A stretch of 39,641 bases of DNA, taken from Desulfobacteraceae bacterium (lineage in GTDB: Bacteria > Desulfobacterota > Desulfobacteria > Desulfobacterales > JAABRJ01). A program made the translations under genes and the position numbers. The notes under the pieces were generated by a model that saw nothing but the letters and a program-made list of their open reading frames with translations, searched no databases and was not told the origin of the DNA. Where the stretch lies: the NCBI GenBank assembly GCA_022340425.1, contig JAJDNY010000177.1:1-39641 (forward strand). Direction: 5' to 3'. The stretch's first letter is position 1, and every line of letters starts with the position of its first letter. Below, piece after piece: positions 56 to 30,159 of this stretch.

Positions 56-1549
56 TCAGGGTTGCAGCTCGATTTCGCCGGGACGCCAGGTCTGGTTGAA
101 CCAGGGTTCCAGCGGGCCGTAGAGGCGCAGGATCATGAACCAGCCCTTGCCGGGAATCGTCTGCACCCAATTGTTTTCCTTGCCTTCCGGAGCTCGCGGG
201 CCAAAAAAGACGTCCACCGAACCGTCCTGGTTGACGAGGAGATCCTTGTTTTGGCTGCTGACACTGGGGAATCGTTGGTCGGTTTGCAGCATCGAGCGGG
301 TCTGTGTATCGTAGACGATGACCGACCAGAAATCCTTGGCCGGGACGTTCGGCGGCAGGCGCAGCTTGTAGGTCTTGCCCCCATCGAACGGATTGCCGTC
401 CGCATCCAAGGCGCACCAGGGGTACTGGGACCCTTTGCCGACCATTTCTTCCGCCATGGCCGGTGTCACGCCGGTGGCAAGGTAATAGAAGAACGCCGCG
501 CCGTCGAGATTGGAAACTCCGGGCGCTATCTCAAACTTGTAGCCGCCGAAAAACGGCAGGCGCCACGGGCTGTCCGGATAGAAGTAGGCCTGCGGGTCGC
601 GAATCTTGTAAGCGATCGCCCGTGCGGTCACGCTGCCGATCTTGGCGGCATCCGTGAGGATTTTCTTCATCCGTTCGTCGGGATTGAAGGGCTTGCCCTT
701 CTCGATGCCGATGGCGGCGAAGAGACCCAGGGTGGTGGGATTGCTGCCCGCGCTGGGTTCCTCCTGGATAGCTTCGTTCAGCATACTCCAGAAGGTGTAG
801 TCGCTGGGCGGGACGAAGTTCGAGTAAATGCCGGACGCATTGACGAACTTCATCTCGGGAGGATTGGCGGCATCGGCAAGCTGGTAGATCTTGAGATATT
901 TCTTGACCGCCTCGACACCCGGTTTGGTCGCGCCGTCCACGAGAAAGGAGCGGAAGGGCATCCAATTGCCGTAGGTGCTGGGACGGACGACGAAATAGCC
1001 CTCCGGCACTTCTCCCTTGTAGCCCGGGGGCAGGATCAGATACTTGCCGCCCTTGCCCTGGTCGGCGCCGGTGATACCGACGTCGGCCACCCAGTTGTAC
1101 CAGAAGTCGTCGATGAGCCCCAGAACCATGGGCGGGATTTCCACAACCAACGGCCCTTGCTTGGTATCGAGCCAGATGAAGCTGTAAATGGTATTGTCGT
1201 TGGCCGTCAGTTCCACGGTCTTCGAATCGACCAGATCCTCCCAGATCACATCCGTCTGGTTGACCGGTCCGAATTCCTCCAGGGTCGCTCGCATGCCTAC
1301 CTGGTTGACGATCGGGATGGCCAGCAGATAGGCCTGCAAGGCCCGGGAGGCATCCAGGTTGTCATAGATTTTCTGCGTGGTCGCCCCATCGGGGAGGCCG
1401 TCGTTCAGGTTCAGGGTGCCGATGGAGGTCTCGACCTTGTCCGGCACAGCCACGCCCGGCGCGATGGGCGTGGTCATTTTGTAGTCCTTGGCAGCCGCGG
1501 TCGTCACCATCAAAGCAGCCATCAGCGTATACAGCATGACGCGCTTCAT
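56..1549 (-). CDS. DUF1254/DUF1214 domain secreted protein
   Basis: A 497-residue protein that opens with a lysine/arginine n-region and a hydrophobic stretch ending in alanines (about residues 1-20), which reads as a Sec signal peptide, so it should be periplasmic. The N-terminal half fits the DUF1254 fold and the C-terminal part the DUF1214 fold: the aromatic-rich segment near the end (GWFMILRLYGPLEPWFNQTW) and the preceding NNWVQTIPGKG block are typical of this pair of domains. The biochemical role of the family is not established. The start at 1549 has a good ribosome site (GAGGG about 7 bases upstream). It is the last visible gene of a minus-strand set that includes an arylsulfatase, and the two families are often neighbours, so a role in handling the same sulfated substrate is an inference. 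Family assignment is confident, function is not. Confidence 0.85.
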   Translation of the reverse strand: MKRVMLYTLMAALMVTTAAAKDYKMTTPIAPGVAVPDKVETSIGTLNLNDGLPDGATTQKIYDNLDASRALQAYLLAIPIVNQVGMRATLEEFGPVNQTDVIWEDLVDSKTVELTANDNTIYSFIWLDTKQGPLVVEIPPMVLGLIDDFWYNWVADVGITGADQGKGGKYLILPPGYKGEVPEGYFVVRPSTYGNWMPFRSFLVDGATKPGVEAVKKYLKIYQLADAANPPEMKFVNASGIYSNFVPPSDYTFWSMLNEAIQEEPSAGSNPTTLGLFAAIGIEKGKPFNPDERMKKILTDAAKIGSVTARAIAYKIRDPQAYFYPDSPWRLPFFGGYKFEIAPGVSNLDGAAFFYYLATGVTPAMAEEMVGKGSQYPWCALDADGNPFDGGKTYKLRLPPNVPAKDFWSVIVYDTQTRSMLQTDQRFPSVSSQNKDLLVNQDGSVDVFFGPRAPEGKENNWVQTIPGKGWFMILRLYGPLEPWFNQTWRPGEIELQP

Positions 1550-1593
1550 TTTCTTTCCCTCTTAATTGCCAATCGTCTTACGACGCTGAACCG

Positions 1594-1623
1594 GCGGACC
1601 GCTCATCGATAAGAACGGTCCGC
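1594..1623 (-). other. Intercistronic hairpin before the DUF1254 gene
   Basis: A perfect 8-bp inverted repeat (GCGGACCG / CGGTCCGC) with a 14-nt loop lies in the 121-nt gap between the sulfatase stop and the DUF1254 start. There is no T-tract, so it is not an intrinsic terminator. It could stabilise the upstream mRNA or set relative expression within the operon. Confidence 0.4.
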
Positions 1624-1670
1624 GCGATTCACGATCGAAACCATTAGGCTTCAGGTTCGCTGCGCCGCTT

Positions 1671-4220
1671 CTAGTGCGGTCCGCCCTGCATGTGATGGAT
1701 CGGCTGGCCGTCCACCGCCAAGGCCGTCGTATTCTCGAGTTTCTTGATGTCCTCGGGTGACAGCTCCGGCCGGTCCACCTTGATGGTCAGCTTGTTGAGC
1801 TTGGCGGTCAGGGGGAAGGGCGGCGTGTAGTCCGCGTCGTTCACCCCGGTCAGGGTGTCGGAGCCGATATCGAAGCTTTCGTCCCACTGCAGAATCATGG
1901 GCAGGGTGCGCTTCATGGTGATGGTCTGGACGGTCTTGCCGTCCACCTTGAGGGCGCCGGTACCGGAGCGCCCGACACCGCTCATGTTGTTGAAGGCCAG
2001 GGTGCCGACCCCGAGCCCGTCGTATTTGAAGTCGAATTCGATGATATGCCGGCCCGGGGAGAGGGCCTCGGGCCCTTCCCAGCGAATGCGCTTGAGGTCG
2101 ACGAGATTCCACAGGAACACGGGCTTGCTCTTGAGCAGATAAAAGCCGTAGCCGGCAAAGCGCCCGCCCGAGGTCAGGATCACGCCGTCGGCCCCGCTCT
2201 GGGGCACGTCGATGTCCGCCGTGATGGTGTAGGAGGTGTTGAGCAGAGCCGGCGAATCACCCTGGGGCAGGCCCACCATGGGGCGGGTGTAGACGAACTC
2301 GGTGCGGCCGGCGGTGATGTTGGGTCGCGGGGCCGCGATGCGGGCCGCCACCGAGGCGTCCATGGGGAAGATCTGGTATTGCTCGGCTTGGGCCACGAAC
2401 TTCTTGCGCATCTCGGCCACCTTGTCCGGGTGCTGGGACGCGATGTCGTTGACCTGGCTGAAGTCCTTGGTCAGGTCGTAGAGCTGAAACACCTGGTTGT
2501 TCAGCGGATCGGGATTGGCCGCCCCGAAGGCCTGCCAGGGCGCGCGGTTGACCTTGGTGCTCAGAAGCCAGCCGTCGTCGTAGAGCGCCCACTGGCCCAT
2601 CATCTCGAAGTACTGGATCTTGTGGCGCGAGGGCGCCTTGGCGTTCGCCGAATCGAAGGTGTAGAGGAAGCTCGTGCCCTCCATGGGCGCCTGCTTGATC
2701 CCGTCCACGTATTCGGGGGCGGGGATGCCGGCGGCTTCCAGGATGGTGGGCACCACATCGATCACGTGGATGAACTGCTCGCGCAGCCCCCCCTTGTCCT
2801 TGATGCGCGCGGGCCAGGACACCACCATGTTCTGGTTGATCCCGCCGAGTCTCGAGGCATTTTGTTTGAACCAGTCGAAGGGCGTGTCGAAGGCCCAGGA
2901 CCAGCCGGCCGACATGTGGTTGTAGGTCTGCTCGGTGCCCCAGACGTCGTACCACTTCATCTGCACGTCCGCTGGCATTTCGTTGATGCCGTTGAAGAAG
3001 GCCACCTCGTTGGGGGTGCCCAGCGGTCCGCCCTCGGCGCTGGTGCCGTTGTCGCCGTTGATGTAGATGACCAGCGTGTTGTCGAGCCGGCCCGCGTCCT
3101 CGAAGGCCTGGACGACGCGGCCGATCTCGTGGTCGTTGTAAGCCGCGTAGGCGGCGAAGGTCTCGACCTGGCGGATGAAGAGCTTTTTCTCCACGGGCGT
3201 CAATTCATCCCAGGGTTTGAGCAAATCCTTCGGCCAGGGCGCCAGTTGGGTGTCGGCCGGGATTACGCCGAGCTTTTTCTGGTTCTCCAGAATCCGTTCG
3301 CGCAGCTTTTCGTAGCCGTCGTCGAAAAGGTGCATGGCGCGGACTTTGTCCACCCACTCCTTGGTGGGGTGATGGGGGGCGTGGGTGGCGCCGGGGGCGT
3401 ACTTGATGAAGATGGGCTTGGAGGGGTCCGTCTGGTGCATGCGGGCAATGTAGTCGATGGCGTCGTCGGCCATGCCGGTGATCAGGTTCCAGTCCGGCTT
3501 GCCCCTGAAGGGGTAGATCTGGGTGGTGTTGCGAAAGAGGTTGGGCTGCCACTGGTTGGCATCACCGCCGACGAAGCCGTAGAAGTACTCGAAGCCCATG
3601 CCGGTGGGCCACTTGTCGAAGGGCCCCACCTGACTGGCCGCGAAGGCCGGCGTGTTGTGGTTCTTGCCGAACCAGGCCGTGCAGTAGCCGTTGCCCCGAA
3701 GGATGCGGCCGATGGTGGCCTTGTCTTCGGAGATGATGCTGTTGTAGCCGGGGAAACCGGTGGACTGCTCCGAGATGACGCCGAAGCCGGCCGAGTGGTG
3801 GTTGCGCCCCGTTATCAGCGCCGCCCGCGTGGGTGAGCAGAGCGCCGTGGAGAAGATCCGGTTGTAGCGCAGCCCCTCATTTGCGAGACGGTCCATGGTG
3901 GGCGTGGGAATCACCCCGCCGAAGGTGCTCGGCACACCGAAGCCGGCATCGTCGGTGATGACCAGCAGGACATTGGGGGCCTTTTCGGGCGGCATCACCC
4001 GCGGCGGCCACCAGGGCTTGGAACTCAGGGCGTCTTGCTTGATCACGCCGCCGAACTCCGGGGGTGGCGGCGGGAGTTGTTGGCCGCTTAAGGTAACGGA
4101 GGCGCTGGGCGCACCCGCTTCTCCGTGGGTCGTCCCGGTACGGGCCGGCATGGACGTGCATGCCGCCACCATGAGGATGACCATGACGGCAATGATTATA
4201 GATCGGTGCTTGGGGGTCAT
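1671..4220 (-). CDS. Type I arylsulfatase, lipoprotein
   Basis: An 849-residue member of the alkaline-phosphatase superfamily that hydrolyses sulfate esters. The N-terminus is a lipoprotein signal with lipobox V-A-A-C (Cys21), so the enzyme should be anchored in the envelope. The metal-binding Asp pair (ITDDAGFG, about residues 88-95) is followed by the sulfatase signature CSPTR at Cys128-Arg132, whose cysteine is expected to be converted to formylglycine. Later motifs include KYAPGATHAPHHP and the INGDNG block with the second metal ligands. The extra C-terminal part (about residues 640-830) resembles the beta-rich tail of large arylsulfatases of the AtsA type. The start has a strong AAAGGAG site. 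No formylglycine-generating enzyme or anSME is in the window, so the maturase must be elsewhere. Substrate cannot be told from sequence. Confidence 0.93.
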   Translation of the reverse strand: MTPKHRSIIIAVMVILMVAACTSMPARTGTTHGEAGAPSASVTLSGQQLPPPPPEFGGVIKQDALSSKPWWPPRVMPPEKAPNVLLVITDDAGFGVPSTFGGVIPTPTMDRLANEGLRYNRIFSTALCSPTRAALITGRNHHSAGFGVISEQSTGFPGYNSIISEDKATIGRILRGNGYCTAWFGKNHNTPAFAASQVGPFDKWPTGMGFEYFYGFVGGDANQWQPNLFRNTTQIYPFRGKPDWNLITGMADDAIDYIARMHQTDPSKPIFIKYAPGATHAPHHPTKEWVDKVRAMHLFDDGYEKLRERILENQKKLGVIPADTQLAPWPKDLLKPWDELTPVEKKLFIRQVETFAAYAAYNDHEIGRVVQAFEDAGRLDNTLVIYINGDNGTSAEGGPLGTPNEVAFFNGINEMPADVQMKWYDVWGTEQTYNHMSAGWSWAFDTPFDWFKQNASRLGGINQNMVVSWPARIKDKGGLREQFIHVIDVVPTILEAAGIPAPEYVDGIKQAPMEGTSFLYTFDSANAKAPSRHKIQYFEMMGQWALYDDGWLLSTKVNRAPWQAFGAANPDPLNNQVFQLYDLTKDFSQVNDIASQHPDKVAEMRKKFVAQAEQYQIFPMDASVAARIAAPRPNITAGRTEFVYTRPMVGLPQGDSPALLNTSYTITADIDVPQSGADGVILTSGGRFAGYGFYLLKSKPVFLWNLVDLKRIRWEGPEALSPGRHIIEFDFKYDGLGVGTLAFNNMSGVGRSGTGALKVDGKTVQTITMKRTLPMILQWDESFDIGSDTLTGVNDADYTPPFPLTAKLNKLTIKVDRPELSPEDIKKLENTTALAVDGQPIHHMQGGPH

Positions 4221-26945: not shown

Positions 26946-27992
26946 TCAGCGCAGCACGGTTTCGGTCCAGGCCTGGATCCAGCGCTCGCGGTGGGCGGCG
27001 ATCTCCTCCGGGGGCAGCGCCACCGGCTGTTCGGCCAGGCGGGTGTGGCGGCGGAAGACCTCGGGCAGGGCCGCCTGCCGGTTGGCGGGAAAAACGAACA
27101 TCTGCAGCGGGATGTCTTCCTGGAAGCCCCGGTCCAGCATGAAATCCACCAGTTGGCGGGCCAGCGCCAGCCGGGGGGTGCCCTTCAGAATGCCCACGAA
27201 TTCGATCTGGCGGAAACAGGACCCGGGGGCGGTGACCGCTGCGGTGGGGGCCTCGTCCAGGGGGCTTTCGGCAAAATGGACCTCGGCCGGCGGGCTGCTG
27301 GCGTAGCTGACCACGATCGGCCGGCTGCCCCTGGAGGCGCCGCTGAACTGCCCCCAGTAGGCCTCCTTCCAACCGTCCACCACCAGCACGTCGTTGTCCC
27401 GCAGCTTTTGCCAGAAATCGAGATAGCCGTTCTCGCCGAAGCGGCCCACCGTGGCCAGCAAAAAGGCCAGTCCGGGGGAGGAGGTGGCCGGGTTCTGCAC
27501 CACGGTAAGCCCCCTGAAAGCCGGCTGGGCCAGGTCTTCCAGGGATGCGGGCGGTCTCAGCTGCCGGGTTTGAAACCATTTTTTGTCGTAGTTCAGGCAG
27601 ACATCGCCGAAGTCCACGGGCAGCAGGCGGTTTTGCGGGTCAAGTTTGAGACGGTCCGGGATGGCGGCCAGCAGCGGCGAGTCGTGGGCCTGGAAGATGT
27701 CCGCCTTGAGGGCCCGGCTGAGATAGGTGTTGTCCACGCCGAAGAACACGTCCGCCATGGGGTTGGCCTTGGACAGGATCGCCTGGTTGAGGGCCGCGCC
27801 GGCATCCCCCGCCTTGAGAAACCGGAGCGTGGCCCCATGGGCCTGCTCGAAGGCGGCGACAGTTTGCCGGCTGATGCTGAAACTGTCGTGGGTCATGACG
27901 GTGAGCTGCGCAGTCTGGGCCGCCGCCTGGGAGAAAGCGGCGGTCAGCAGCAGGGCGGCGCCCCACAGCAGGGTCGAGACACGCGGTTTCAT
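26946..27992 (-). CDS. thiB: Thiamine-binding periplasmic protein
   Basis: A 348-residue binding protein with a signal peptide ending in A-A-A-Q. The mature part follows ThiB/TbpA: LTVMTHDSFSISRQTVAAFE, KANPMADVFFGVDNTYLSRA, PVDFGDVCLNYDKKWF, VVQNPATSSPGLAFLLATVG, VVDGWKEAYWGQF and IVVSYASSPP all have clear counterparts in Escherichia coli ThiB. It binds thiamine, TMP or TPP in the periplasm. The start at 27992 has a perfect GGAGGAGG site; longer in-frame starts run back into the terminator of the riboswitch and are rejected. The gene is controlled by the TPP riboswitch upstream. Confidence 0.93.
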   Translation of the reverse strand: MKPRVSTLLWGAALLLTAAFSQAAAQTAQLTVMTHDSFSISRQTVAAFEQAHGATLRFLKAGDAGAALNQAILSKANPMADVFFGVDNTYLSRALKADIFQAHDSPLLAAIPDRLKLDPQNRLLPVDFGDVCLNYDKKWFQTRQLRPPASLEDLAQPAFRGLTVVQNPATSSPGLAFLLATVGRFGENGYLDFWQKLRDNDVLVVDGWKEAYWGQFSGASRGSRPIVVSYASSPPAEVHFAESPLDEAPTAAVTAPGSCFRQIEFVGILKGTPRLALARQLVDFMLDRGFQEDIPLQMFVFPANRQAALPEVFRRHTRLAEQPVALPPEEIAAHRERWIQAWTETVLR

Positions 27993-28014
27993 GGCACCCT
28001 CCTCCATCCAGTGG

Positions 28015-28056
28015 AATGAAAACAAACGAGCCGTTCTGCCAGGGCAGGAACGGCTC
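28015..28056 (-). terminator. Riboswitch-controlled intrinsic terminator before thiB
   Basis: On the minus strand a 9-bp stem GAGCCGTTC / GAACGGCTC (28056-28048 with 28036-28028) is followed by GTTTGTTTTC. It lies right after the TPP aptamer and before the thiB ribosome site, so it is the expected expression platform. Confidence 0.8.
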
Positions 28057-28063
28057 GAATCCC

Positions 28064-28173
28064 GCATCGGGTTTCCTACACCGGCATTACCCGGCTCAGG
28101 TTCAACGGTCGGACCCTCTTACGCCCTCAAAGGGTCCCTCTCAGCCCGGTTTCACCGGGCTCCCGGCAGACGC
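28064..28173 (-). promoter_or_regulatory. TPP riboswitch (THI element)
   Basis: The minus strand carries the conserved aptamer marks in order: GGGAGCC, a P2/P3 helix closed by GGGCTGAGAGGG, a variable P3a hairpin (GGGACCC...GGGTCC), then GAACCTGAGCCGGGTAATGC and GGTGTAGGAA. These are the pyrimidine- and pyrophosphate-sensing segments of the THI element. It should bind thiamine pyrophosphate and favour the terminator at 28015-28056 when the vitamin is abundant. Exact ends are approximate. Confidence 0.95.
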
Positions 28174-28181
28174 TATGTCAA

Positions 28182-28210
28182 ATGATGGTCTTTTTTCCCA
28201 GGATTTCCAA
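28182..28210 (-). promoter_or_regulatory. Candidate promoter of the thiBPQ operon
   Basis: Minus strand: -35 TTGGAA (28210-28205, 4 of 6), 17-nt spacer, -10 CATCAT (28187-28182, 4 of 6). It would start transcription near 28175, just before the aptamer, which is the correct place, although both boxes are imperfect. Confidence 0.4.
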
Positions 28211-28242
28211 CGTATGATCTTTGGATCGCGGACGGACACCCC

Positions 28243-28443
28243 CTATATCACGGTCACATTGACGGCCGCTGGACCTTTCTGTCCCTCGGTAATTTCGAAT
28301 GTGACCCGATCGCCCTCTTTGAGAGACTTGAAACCGGTGGCGTTGATGCCGGTGTGATGGACGAACACGTCAGGTCCGTTTTCCTGCTCGATAAACCCGT
28401 AGCCCTTGCTGTCATTAAACCATTTTACCACGCCCTCTGCCAT
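28243..28443 (-). CDS. CspA-family cold-shock protein
   Basis: A 66-residue single cold-shock domain that binds single-stranded RNA or DNA. RNP-1 (KGYGFIEQ) and RNP-2 (DVFVHHTGI) are both present, followed by [27 protein letters not shown]. The start at 28443 has GGAGGAG 7 bases upstream. It is monocistronic with its own promoter and a leader of about 110 nt holding a strong hairpin, as in regulated cold-shock mRNAs. Whether it is cold-induced is unknown. Confidence 0.96.
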
Positions 28444-28525
28444 TCTAACTCCTCCTTTCAACAAAAATTTTCAAGGTCCCGGGCCCTAGGCCGCAGAATC
28501 GGAGCGCGGTTGAGGCGCAGGACTC

Positions 28526-28546
28526 CGCCCGCATCCGATGCGGGCG
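28526..28546 (-). other. Strong hairpin in the csp leader
   Basis: CGCCCGCATC and GATGCGGGCG form an almost perfect palindrome (about 8 bp of G/C-rich stem with a short loop), 7 nt after the predicted transcription start near 28553 and about 80 nt before the csp start codon. It may stabilise the mRNA 5' end or act in temperature control. Confidence 0.5.
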
Positions 28547-28559
28547 TTTAAACACCCTG

Positions 28560-28587
28560 AATATAGCGTAAAAAGATAAAAATGCAA
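28560..28587 (-). promoter_or_regulatory. Promoter of the csp gene with A/T-rich upstream element
   Basis: Minus strand: -35 TTGCAT (28587-28582), 16-nt spacer, -10 TATATT (28565-28560, 5 of 6). The DNA further upstream is A/T-rich and contains a perfect 14-bp palindrome, AAAATTCGAATTTT (28607-28620), which could work as an UP element or a regulator site. Confidence 0.55.
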
Positions 28588-28622
28588 TAAAATTGATGGA
28601 CCGATAAAAATTCGAATTTTAA

Positions 28623-28746
28623 GATGGTGGTGAAAAAAGCCCAAGTTACGGCGCGCAAATCTCAGCGGCGTGAGGCGTACGACTAAACGCCGCAGCGACT
28701 TCGAGATGCCGCGCAACGCAGAAAATGGACTTTTTACGCCGCCATC
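28623..28746. repeat. 124-bp interrupted palindromic element
   Basis: The two ends match as inverted repeats: 28623-28642 against 28727-28746 pair at 16 of 20 positions (GATGGtGG.../...CCgCCATC). Inside, GCGC, ATCTC/GAGAT and GCGGCGT (28665-28671) / ACGCCGC (28687-28693) pair again in nested order, so that the whole element can fold into one long interrupted hairpin. It fills the space between the rhomboid stop and the csp promoter region, and A/T-rich runs flank both ends. No second copy is in the window. Confidence 0.55.
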
Positions 28747-28776
28747 AAAATTTCTGGCGCTGCGGCATCCCCGGGT

Positions 28777-29655
28777 TCATCGCCCGGAGGCAAAACCGCC
28801 AAGCCCGCAGGACCACGCTGAAAACCCGATCACAGCAGCGGCCACCGCGAGCGCCCAGAACTGGCAGCGTCTGCCCGGGGGGGCTTGCGCCAGTAGGGCA
28901 AATCCGCCCCCAAGCGTTGCGCCGGCGGCGAAACCGAAGAGGTGGGCGAGAAGATCGGAGTTTTGGGCCGTTCCCAGCAAGGCGAGCAGGGCCAGGCCCC
29001 CGCCCAGGGGCAGCAGCGCCCGGAAGCGCTCACCGGCAACGCGGATGCGGCGGGTGAACTGGATGGCGCTTAAAATTCCCAGCGCGCCGAAAATGGCCGT
29101 TGAACTCCCCACCGATAGGTGCCCCGAGCGGAAGAAGACGGCATTCAGGGCGTTGCCGAGGCCGCCGCTGACCAGCACCATCAGCCAGCCGAGGCCCCAG
29201 CCGCAGAGGGAGGCCACCGCCGCCCCGAAAAGGGCGATGCCCACCAGGTTGCCCACCAGATGGAGCCCACCGGCGTGGATCATCAGGGCCGTGATCGTAC
29301 GGTGCCATTCTCCTTGGAGGATCGCTTCGGCCGAAGCGCCGCAGGCGCTGACGACCCGCTCGGGCGTGGCGCCGGAAATGCGCACCAGGTGCATCCCGGC
29401 AAGAAATGCCGCCGCCCACAGGCCGCTGAATATCCCCGGCGACGGTCGCCGGGTCGTGCCGGCAGGCTCCGGCGGCGGGTTCTCCACTTGGTAGCGTTCG
29501 AGGGCCTCACGGGCCCTGGGTGCGTCCTGCCGGGCGACCGAAAGGGTCCAGCCCTCCCCGGCGCGGCTCACGCTGTGGCGGATGTTCAACACCGAGCAGA
29601 CCAGGCTGTAGGTTCGGGCCTGCTCGCGTGTCAGGTTGTCCATCAGGGGGATCAT
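28777..29655 (-). CDS. Rhomboid-family intramembrane serine protease
   Basis: A protein of about 292 residues with a short cytoplasmic N-terminal domain (about residues 1-60, NLTREQARTYSLVCSVLNIR) and six or seven membrane helices. Rhomboid marks: HRTITALMIHAGGLHLVGN (the His/Asn of the oxyanion site), the catalytic serine in VGSSTAIFGALG and the catalytic histidine in LLAHLFGFAAG. It should cleave membrane proteins within their helices; the substrate is unknown. The ATG at 29655 is used; another lies four codons in, and neither has a clear ribosome site. A GTG at 29748 would place the start inside or before the dispersed repeat and is less likely. Confidence 0.88.
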   Translation of the reverse strand: MIPLMDNLTREQARTYSLVCSVLNIRHSVSRAGEGWTLSVARQDAPRAREALERYQVENPPPEPAGTTRRPSPGIFSGLWAAAFLAGMHLVRISGATPERVVSACGASAEAILQGEWHRTITALMIHAGGLHLVGNLVGIALFGAAVASLCGWGLGWLMVLVSGGLGNALNAVFFRSGHLSVGSSTAIFGALGILSAIQFTRRIRVAGERFRALLPLGGGLALLALLGTAQNSDLLAHLFGFAAGATLGGGFALLAQAPPGRRCQFWALAVAAAVIGFSAWSCGLGGFASGR

Positions 29656-29700
29656 GCGCCGCTTTTTTCGCCGGGTTGTCGGGGGTGCATCGCCGCCGCC

Positions 29701-29731
29701 ATCCTGTGGGATTATTTGTGGCCGCGGCCCT
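29701..29731 (-). repeat. 31-bp dispersed repeat, copy 2
   Basis: Direct-orientation match (27 of 31) to 5208-5238. This copy lies 46 bp in front of the rhomboid start, in non-coding DNA. Its outer part GGCCGCGGCC is itself a palindrome that is not kept in copy 1. Confidence 0.6.
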
Positions 29732-30159
29732 AAAGTATCGGCGCCCACGGCCGATCAAAATACTACATGCTTCTCGAATGTGCGTGCATCTTTTAACCCG
29801 GTCATCCTCAAAACAAAATAAAAAAAACTGCGGTGCCGCCGGTTGAAATAACGGCATTCAGAGAAGCATTCCTCCCGCGCGCAACGGCTGACGCAAAGGT
29901 CAGCGGATACGGTTTAAACTCAACTTCGCTCAGAAAGAAAGCGGCCCGCCCTCGGCGCCGCTTTCTTCGTTTTCAAGGCAACTGCCAGGGAGTTAGGGCG
30001 GCTGGCGGCCTTGCCAGGGGCGGCCGGGGTAATTAGCTTGCAGGAGTTTTTAATGCGCCGGCTTCCTTAAGATCAGCCCACCGGAGTCTGTCCCCGGAAA
30101 CCTCAAAAACGCGCCCCGCGCGCCGGTGTGCGGCAGGCCGTTTGAAAGCGAAGGAACCC
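29732..30159. other. Non-coding region between rhomboid and the 55-residue gene
   Basis: About 430 bp without a supported gene. It holds an A-rich run (29809-29828), a small hairpin GCTGAC-N6-GTCAGC near 29886-29903, and the strong inverted repeat at 29935-29967. Open frames here have no ribosome site and an arginine/alanine-biased composition. No clear promoter was found. Confidence 0.5.
29935..29974. terminator. Bidirectional intrinsic terminator
   Basis: A perfect 11-bp stem AAGAAAGCGGC (29935-29945) / GCCGCTTTCTT (29957-29967) with an 11-nt loop. On the plus strand CGTTTTC follows; on the minus strand TTTCTTTC is part of the stem end. No plus-strand gene precedes it. On the minus strand it could end read-through from aroB. 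Confidence 0.6.

Follow-up and report, generated by a model that had tools for sequence, protein, structure and literature searches.

Genes and element borders at the locus

The window, by which we mean the whole stretch of 39,641 nucleotides analysed here from a Desulfobacteraceae bacterium, holds an intergenic palindrome between two genes of the minus strand. On one side lies an ORF taken from the ORF list and given its rhomboid-type name by an earlier note on this DNA (28777–29748, minus strand), whose end is 30 bp from the element described below; on the other side the ORF list gives a small ORF (28243–28464, minus strand, its ATG probably at 28443), which by resemblance we take to be of cold-shock-protein (csp) type. 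The interrupted palindrome of 124 bp that the earlier note had placed between them (28623–28746) is indeed present, with 20-bp arms that pair at 16 of 20 positions, and its supposed ability to fold as a single long hairpin is borne out, as both strands fold better than all 200 shuffled versions (plus strand, -51.8 kcal/mol, z -4.05; minus strand, -55.4 kcal/mol, z -4.65; 0 of 200 shuffles equal in either case). No gene lies inside the palindrome, in line with the view that it is non-coding; several mechanical ORFs extend into it, for instance one of 76 aa at 28486–28716 on the minus strand. Rfam covariance models run over the element gave no family, either at the gathering threshold or at E ≤ 1, and a search of 28200–29000 of the window for promoter- or terminator-like sites gave none. 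Beyond the csp-type ORF, a match to the TPP riboswitch (RF00059; 28055–28175, minus strand; 50.2 bits, E 1.1e-08), which goes unreported at the default threshold since the gathering score of 54.3 is higher, sits at the start of an ORF (26946–28067, minus strand) that presumably encodes a periplasmic binding protein, to judge by resemblance.

When 42 copies from the same genome are aligned together with their flanks, the true unit turns out to be larger than the palindrome: it measures 152 bp (28595–28746, plus strand; model match of 164.3 bits) and starts 28 bp to the left of it. What had been overlooked is that the end motif occurs a third time, at 28595, and that a 6-bp duplication lies on both sides. 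The end motif, GA.G....CG.AAAAAGTC, is present in imperfect form at both ends of the element, and each element carries it three times, namely in the outer-left terminal repeat (28595–28613, plus strand), in the inner-left hairpin arm (28623–28642, plus strand) and in the right terminal repeat (28727–28746, minus strand). The inner-left and right copies, delimited by the copy alignment and by the covariation of the arms, form the foot of the hairpin, the right terminal repeat being at the same time its 3' arm; it is this internal motif copy that would turn 124 of the 152 bp into a stable hairpin. Immediately outside stand two direct copies of AAAATT (28589–28594 and 28747–28752).

The borders and the duplication are fixed by comparison of the filled site with an empty one. 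On either side of the element the window aligns with the other genome of the genus (G001), at 84 and 85% identity, and the element itself is missing there: G001 reads GCAAT-AAAATT-CCT, with a single AAAATT, where the window reads GCAAT-AAAATT-[element]-AAAATT-TCT. The simplest reading of the two sequences is that the element went in after the two species had diverged; the alternative, a precise loss of the element in G001, would leave the same picture. A regulatory structure of the host, proper to the rhomboid–csp intergenic region and not mobile, would account for the position between the two genes, but the region is intact without the element in the sister genome and more than a hundred copies lie elsewhere, so that we give this explanation hardly any credence. 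The origin of the palindrome as a host structure is refuted by the empty site, and there is no need for the extended 3' structure of the rhomboid mRNA once proposed, since the sister genome has both flanks without it. The intergenic palindrome is thus explained as an insertion by transposition; at this site the copy is most likely a neutral intergenic passenger, a later, co-opted effect, for instance on csp transcription, being possible.

Copies in the host genome and across the order

In the host genome (3.97 Mb in 209 contigs), BLAST gave at least 42 matches to the element (best 40 of 164 candidates scored). A covariance model, built from 40 aligned copies after two truncated rows had been dropped, and with a structure derived from the same rows, gave at least 143 matches at E ≤ 0.001 (150 of 1829 candidates scored), four of which are opposite-strand shadows as read from the match list, leaving at least 139 places. 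The 42 copies analysed closely were the top BLAST matches among about 139 places and therefore lean towards the copy of the window. Intergenic positions prevail among them, with 32 of 37 copies (the other five of the 42 had flanks too short to use), compared with 21% of random points (1462 of 1850 points fell inside called genes), the genes being those called by a home-made codon model, which missed the small csp ORF.

Target-site duplications, which had been named as something to look for, accompany many of the copies. Identical 6-bp flanks were found at 14 of the 39 copies with both flanks (shuffled right flanks: mean 1.35, maximum 5, in 2000 shuffles), and the window copy has its AAAATT pair; flanks agree at 5–6 of 6 positions in 23 copies (mean 4.80, maximum 11, in 2000 shuffles) and at 4 or fewer in the remaining 16. 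Other duplication lengths, from 3 to 10, never gave more than two exact flank matches in the same 39 copies. The 14 exact targets follow the pattern AANNTT, with few exceptions. Among the model matches listed there are also four head-to-tail pairs with a spacer of 6–7 bp (contigs C68, C92, C145 and C181), and the tandem in C92 has AACCTT at all three boundaries. These pairs were considered as proof of adjacent insertion and set aside as such, because the partners in two of them show identities of 0.919 and 0.900, the mean being 0.838, and duplication fits equally well.

The family extends well beyond the host. Model matches at E ≤ 0.001, some of them weak, occur in at least 30 of 58 genomes of the order including the host, that is, in at least 29 of the 57 others, and in one genome of another family (G020) all 150 candidates scored were matches, which gives at least 150. 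The size and layout of the element are similar across the order. In named genome contigs the end motif was found in at least 117 stretches, 80 of them listed; the listed contigs are mostly MAGs titled Desulfobacterales, Desulfobacteraceae, Desulfobulbaceae, Syntrophaceae, Deltaproteobacteria or Thermodesulfobacteriota, together with a few titled only Proteobacteria, Pseudomonadota or bacterium, one Schekmanbacteria and one Bacteroidales. A partner end lies within 400 bp at 57 of the 80 listed places, identical 6-bp flanks are seen at 29, and the elements there are 87 to 260 bp long; at 13 further places of the 80 the sequence is too short to judge. The element model has 30 matches inside the listed named loci, several being opposite-strand shadows. 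The end motif was also seen in two stretches of viral contigs.

Of the two types of element that the earlier note had in mind, REP and MITE, these data single out the latter. A REP, BIME or REPIN palindrome mobilised by a TnpA-REP (HUH/Y1) transposase would likewise be palindromic, largely intergenic and present in many copies, but it is contradicted by the 152-bp unit with its terminal repeats and 6-bp duplications, and by ends held in common with the IS of a DDE transposase, that is, with a partner of another kind. REPs are put at 20–40 bp in a passage of PMC3733652, and the element is no such short palindrome without target duplication; we therefore regard this explanation as very improbable. 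Nor is the element unique and its fold unconserved, the findings that had been held to speak against the earlier reading: it is multicopy, and the fold is kept among the copies.

Ends shared with a transposase-encoding IS

The partner was sought among 20 DDE_Tnp_1 loci from nine genomes, of which a single one, in the host genome itself (L274), lies between two end motifs. This IS (402–2297 of its locus, 1896 bp) consists, like members of the IS1182 family, of one ORF between terminal repeats; the ORF is intact, encodes 581 aa and ends at the right repeat, and the left end of the IS is identical to the outer-left repeat of the window element at 17 of 19 bases. The matching transposase is thus found as far as a DDE-type IS with the same ends is concerned, although the host's own IS stands without a matching duplication, its flanks being ATCCTT and AATTTT. 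Apart from the ends, the 40 elements gave no alignment over 21 bp with this IS, and derivation of the element by simple internal deletion was rejected for want of common sequence beyond about 20 bp of the end.

The L274 transposase matches the IS1182 model NF033551 over residues 39–525 (E 5.5e-46, 157.5 bits, below the NCBI cut-off of 270), PF13751 with 56.8 bits (above the cut-off of 25.1), PF05598 above its cut-off and PF01609 below it, so that on sequence grounds it would be a divergent relative of IS1182, below the family cut-off. ISDol1/ISNCY, which we had supposed might be the parent IS, was discarded, as the protein scores only 54.6 against NF033593 (ISNCY_1; cut-off 325). Homologs, some of them fragments or weak, occur in at least 28 of 146 genomes of the order including the host. 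Of 30 loci returned, the 13 homologs with long open frames were examined and fragments excluded, such as L292, which has both ends and unlike flanks. The end motif stands at both ends in 12 of the 13 (L274 and 11 more), and identical 6-bp flanks in six, from five genomes (L282, AAACTT; L284, AACCTT; L285, AATTTT; L286, AATCTT; L289, AATTTT; L308, AAAGTT); L283 has an 8-bp repeat, and the remaining six, L274 included, have no flank repeat. D152, D360 and E484 are invariant in all 13 and probably make up the catalytic triad. At L284 (G071, 1371–3402), the transposase IS lies beside a 133-bp element with the end motif, AACCTT being found at all three boundaries.

In view of the empty site, the copy number, the 6-bp duplications and an IS with the same ends, we consider it highly probable that the 152-bp element is one copy of a high-copy MITE, probably mobilised in trans by a transposase of the L274 kind: it is short, lacks a transposase gene and combines terminal inverted repeats with a duplication, an empty site and the ends of an autonomous IS. 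A transposase of this kind would bind the outer-left and right ends and insert the element at targets of the AANNTT type by way of cuts staggered by 6 bp, and gap repair would then create the duplication.

That the mobilising enzyme is instead a transposase other than the IS1182-related one seems improbable to us. It would be in keeping with the occurrence of the same ends on several other small elements, and with genomes that have elements and no homolog among the matches listed for them (G020, with at least 150 element-model matches; G004, 30; G001, 16; G008, 9; completeness 79–84% in G020, G001 and G008, and 97% in G004). Against it, L274 alone among the 20 DDE_Tnp_1 loci of nine genomes sits between two end motifs, and its relatives carry the same ends and duplications. 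Candidate IS ends in G020 stop at contig breaks, and in one of these, IS-like, the motif precedes ATG-ATA by 132 bp; the distance from motif to start is 86–141 bp in seven homologs, 130–133 bp in five of them, and many homologs begin with MI, a resemblance between the broken end and the transposase homologs that is suggestive only. Elsewhere, no autonomous IS was found at end motifs of the host genome outside the model matches, in 10 stretches (about 100 of 118 motif matches being listed); the end-motif loci of G015, G046 and G004 are small elements (about 145–155 and 310 bp) with no transposase recognised by eye among the ORFs listed; and none was recognised by eye beside the 15 ends checked in named contigs.

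Correia elements and other bacterial MITEs of 100–200 bp are similar in size, intergenic spread and hairpin potential, but differ from the present element in their ends and target duplication. Correia elements are also named in a part of PMC4853749. Also comparable are the MITEs that a passage of PMC3852290 assigns to ISMac2 (IS1182 family) of Methanosarcina acetivorans and gives as 160 and 169 bp long: they are of similar size, non-autonomous and paired with an IS1182-type partner, which here falls below the family cut-off. They are archaeal, however, with repeats of 26 and 25 bp in place of about 19 bp, their direct repeats measure 4 and 0 bp in place of 6 bp, and that passage does not mention a third occurrence of the end motif such as the one described here. 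The 6-bp duplications also differ from what is given for IS1272, reported to replace stem-loops without duplications (PMC5678879), and for ISPse1, listed with a 4-bp duplication (PMC3281130). Among the titles and abstracts of open-licence PMC articles, no description of the family was recognised. The element thus represents a MITE family undescribed in the literature searched, tied to a divergent transposase related to IS1182 and to 6-bp duplications.

Hairpin arms and other elements with the same ends

Across the 40 aligned copies, standard pairs fill 96.9% of the pair cells of the hairpin, against at most 46.2% when the arms are slid, and 39 cells show a double change, against 10.8 in shuffles (0 of 500 as high). 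When the first 10 bases are compared, inner-left and right arms agree at 8.30 positions on average, against 7.29 after shuffling (0 of 2000), and the outer-left and right ends at 4.33, against 4.45. The same holds for 29 elements from elsewhere (inner arm versus right, 7.76 against 6.81 shuffled, 0 of 5000; outer end versus right, 5.79 against 5.96), for which the position and orientation of the arms were picked by the best arm match, a choice that favours pairing. This set comprises 16 of 27 model rows and 13 of 30 matches in named loci. Excluded were the host's own copy and 10 rows whose ends were less distinct, along with 17 matches, one of which (L199) has a higher score than two of those included. 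A single MAG contributed three of the 29 (L166, L214 and L219), and the named contigs may share organisms with the other genomes sampled. Since the arms covary and the outer-left end shows no such link with the right one, it is apparently the pairing of the arms that is maintained, and not that of the termini.

Ancestry was taken into account with a tree built from the core sequences of the 69 elements, in which independent supported pairs differing in one arm were compared at five arm positions. Where the inner arm differs, the right arm changes alike in 4.8/5, 4.0/5, 2.8/3, 1.8/2 and 1.9/3, and the opposite way in 0.0 at each of the five positions; where the outer end differs, it changes alike in 0.5/5, 1.0/6, 0.1/2, 1.1/6 and 0.0/2. 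Sign tests based on the tree point in the same direction, none of them reaching p 0.05 with at most five supported independent pairs per position.

The paired changes most likely stem from template switching between the arms during replication, perhaps together with selection on the fold; PMC7202029 and PMC8604942 document such switching for the arms of imperfect palindromes. A MITE whose hairpin is itself selected, as an insulator or stabiliser of transcripts or as a cruciform preferred by the transposase, is a possible reading, to which we give well under half of our belief. It would fit the covariation of the arms in the 40 own copies and the 29 others, which the outer-left end does not share, as well as the likeness of length and layout across the order, and IS1272, of the IS1182 family, is reported in a passage of PMC5678879 to choose stem-loop targets. 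Template switching, however, yields the same pattern without function, the number of pairs with ancestry controlled is as small as given above, and neither an Rfam family nor a terminator consensus was found at the window copy. We are slightly more doubtful that the hairpin is the selected working part, with a right terminus that is both transposase end and base of the hairpin and that evolves in concert with the internal arm and not with the opposite terminus; if true, the element would be a mobile structured module kept at about 151 bp across an order, acting either as RNA, to insulate or stabilise, or as a cruciform that the transposase uses. Under either cause, with more than 100 copies per genome and three motif copies per element, the family offers a natural data set on whether palindrome pairing is kept by selection or by template switching.

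The same end motif also borders other small elements, of about 310, 145–155 and 133 bp, at L137 and L138 (G046), at L121, L122, L125, L126 and L129 (G015) and at L143, L157 and L174 (named MAGs); because the motif is shared in this way, several MITE families may rely on transposases of one kind. At L262 (contig C305 of G020, about 2050–2200), a copy of the element interrupts the ORF of a DDE transposase. Finally, at L128 (G015, 84–1316) two end motifs in inverted orientation, each bordered by AACGTT, surround an ORF which we take from its resemblance to be a heterodisulfide-reductase subunit and not a transposase; it is possibly a passenger gene, or there by chance.
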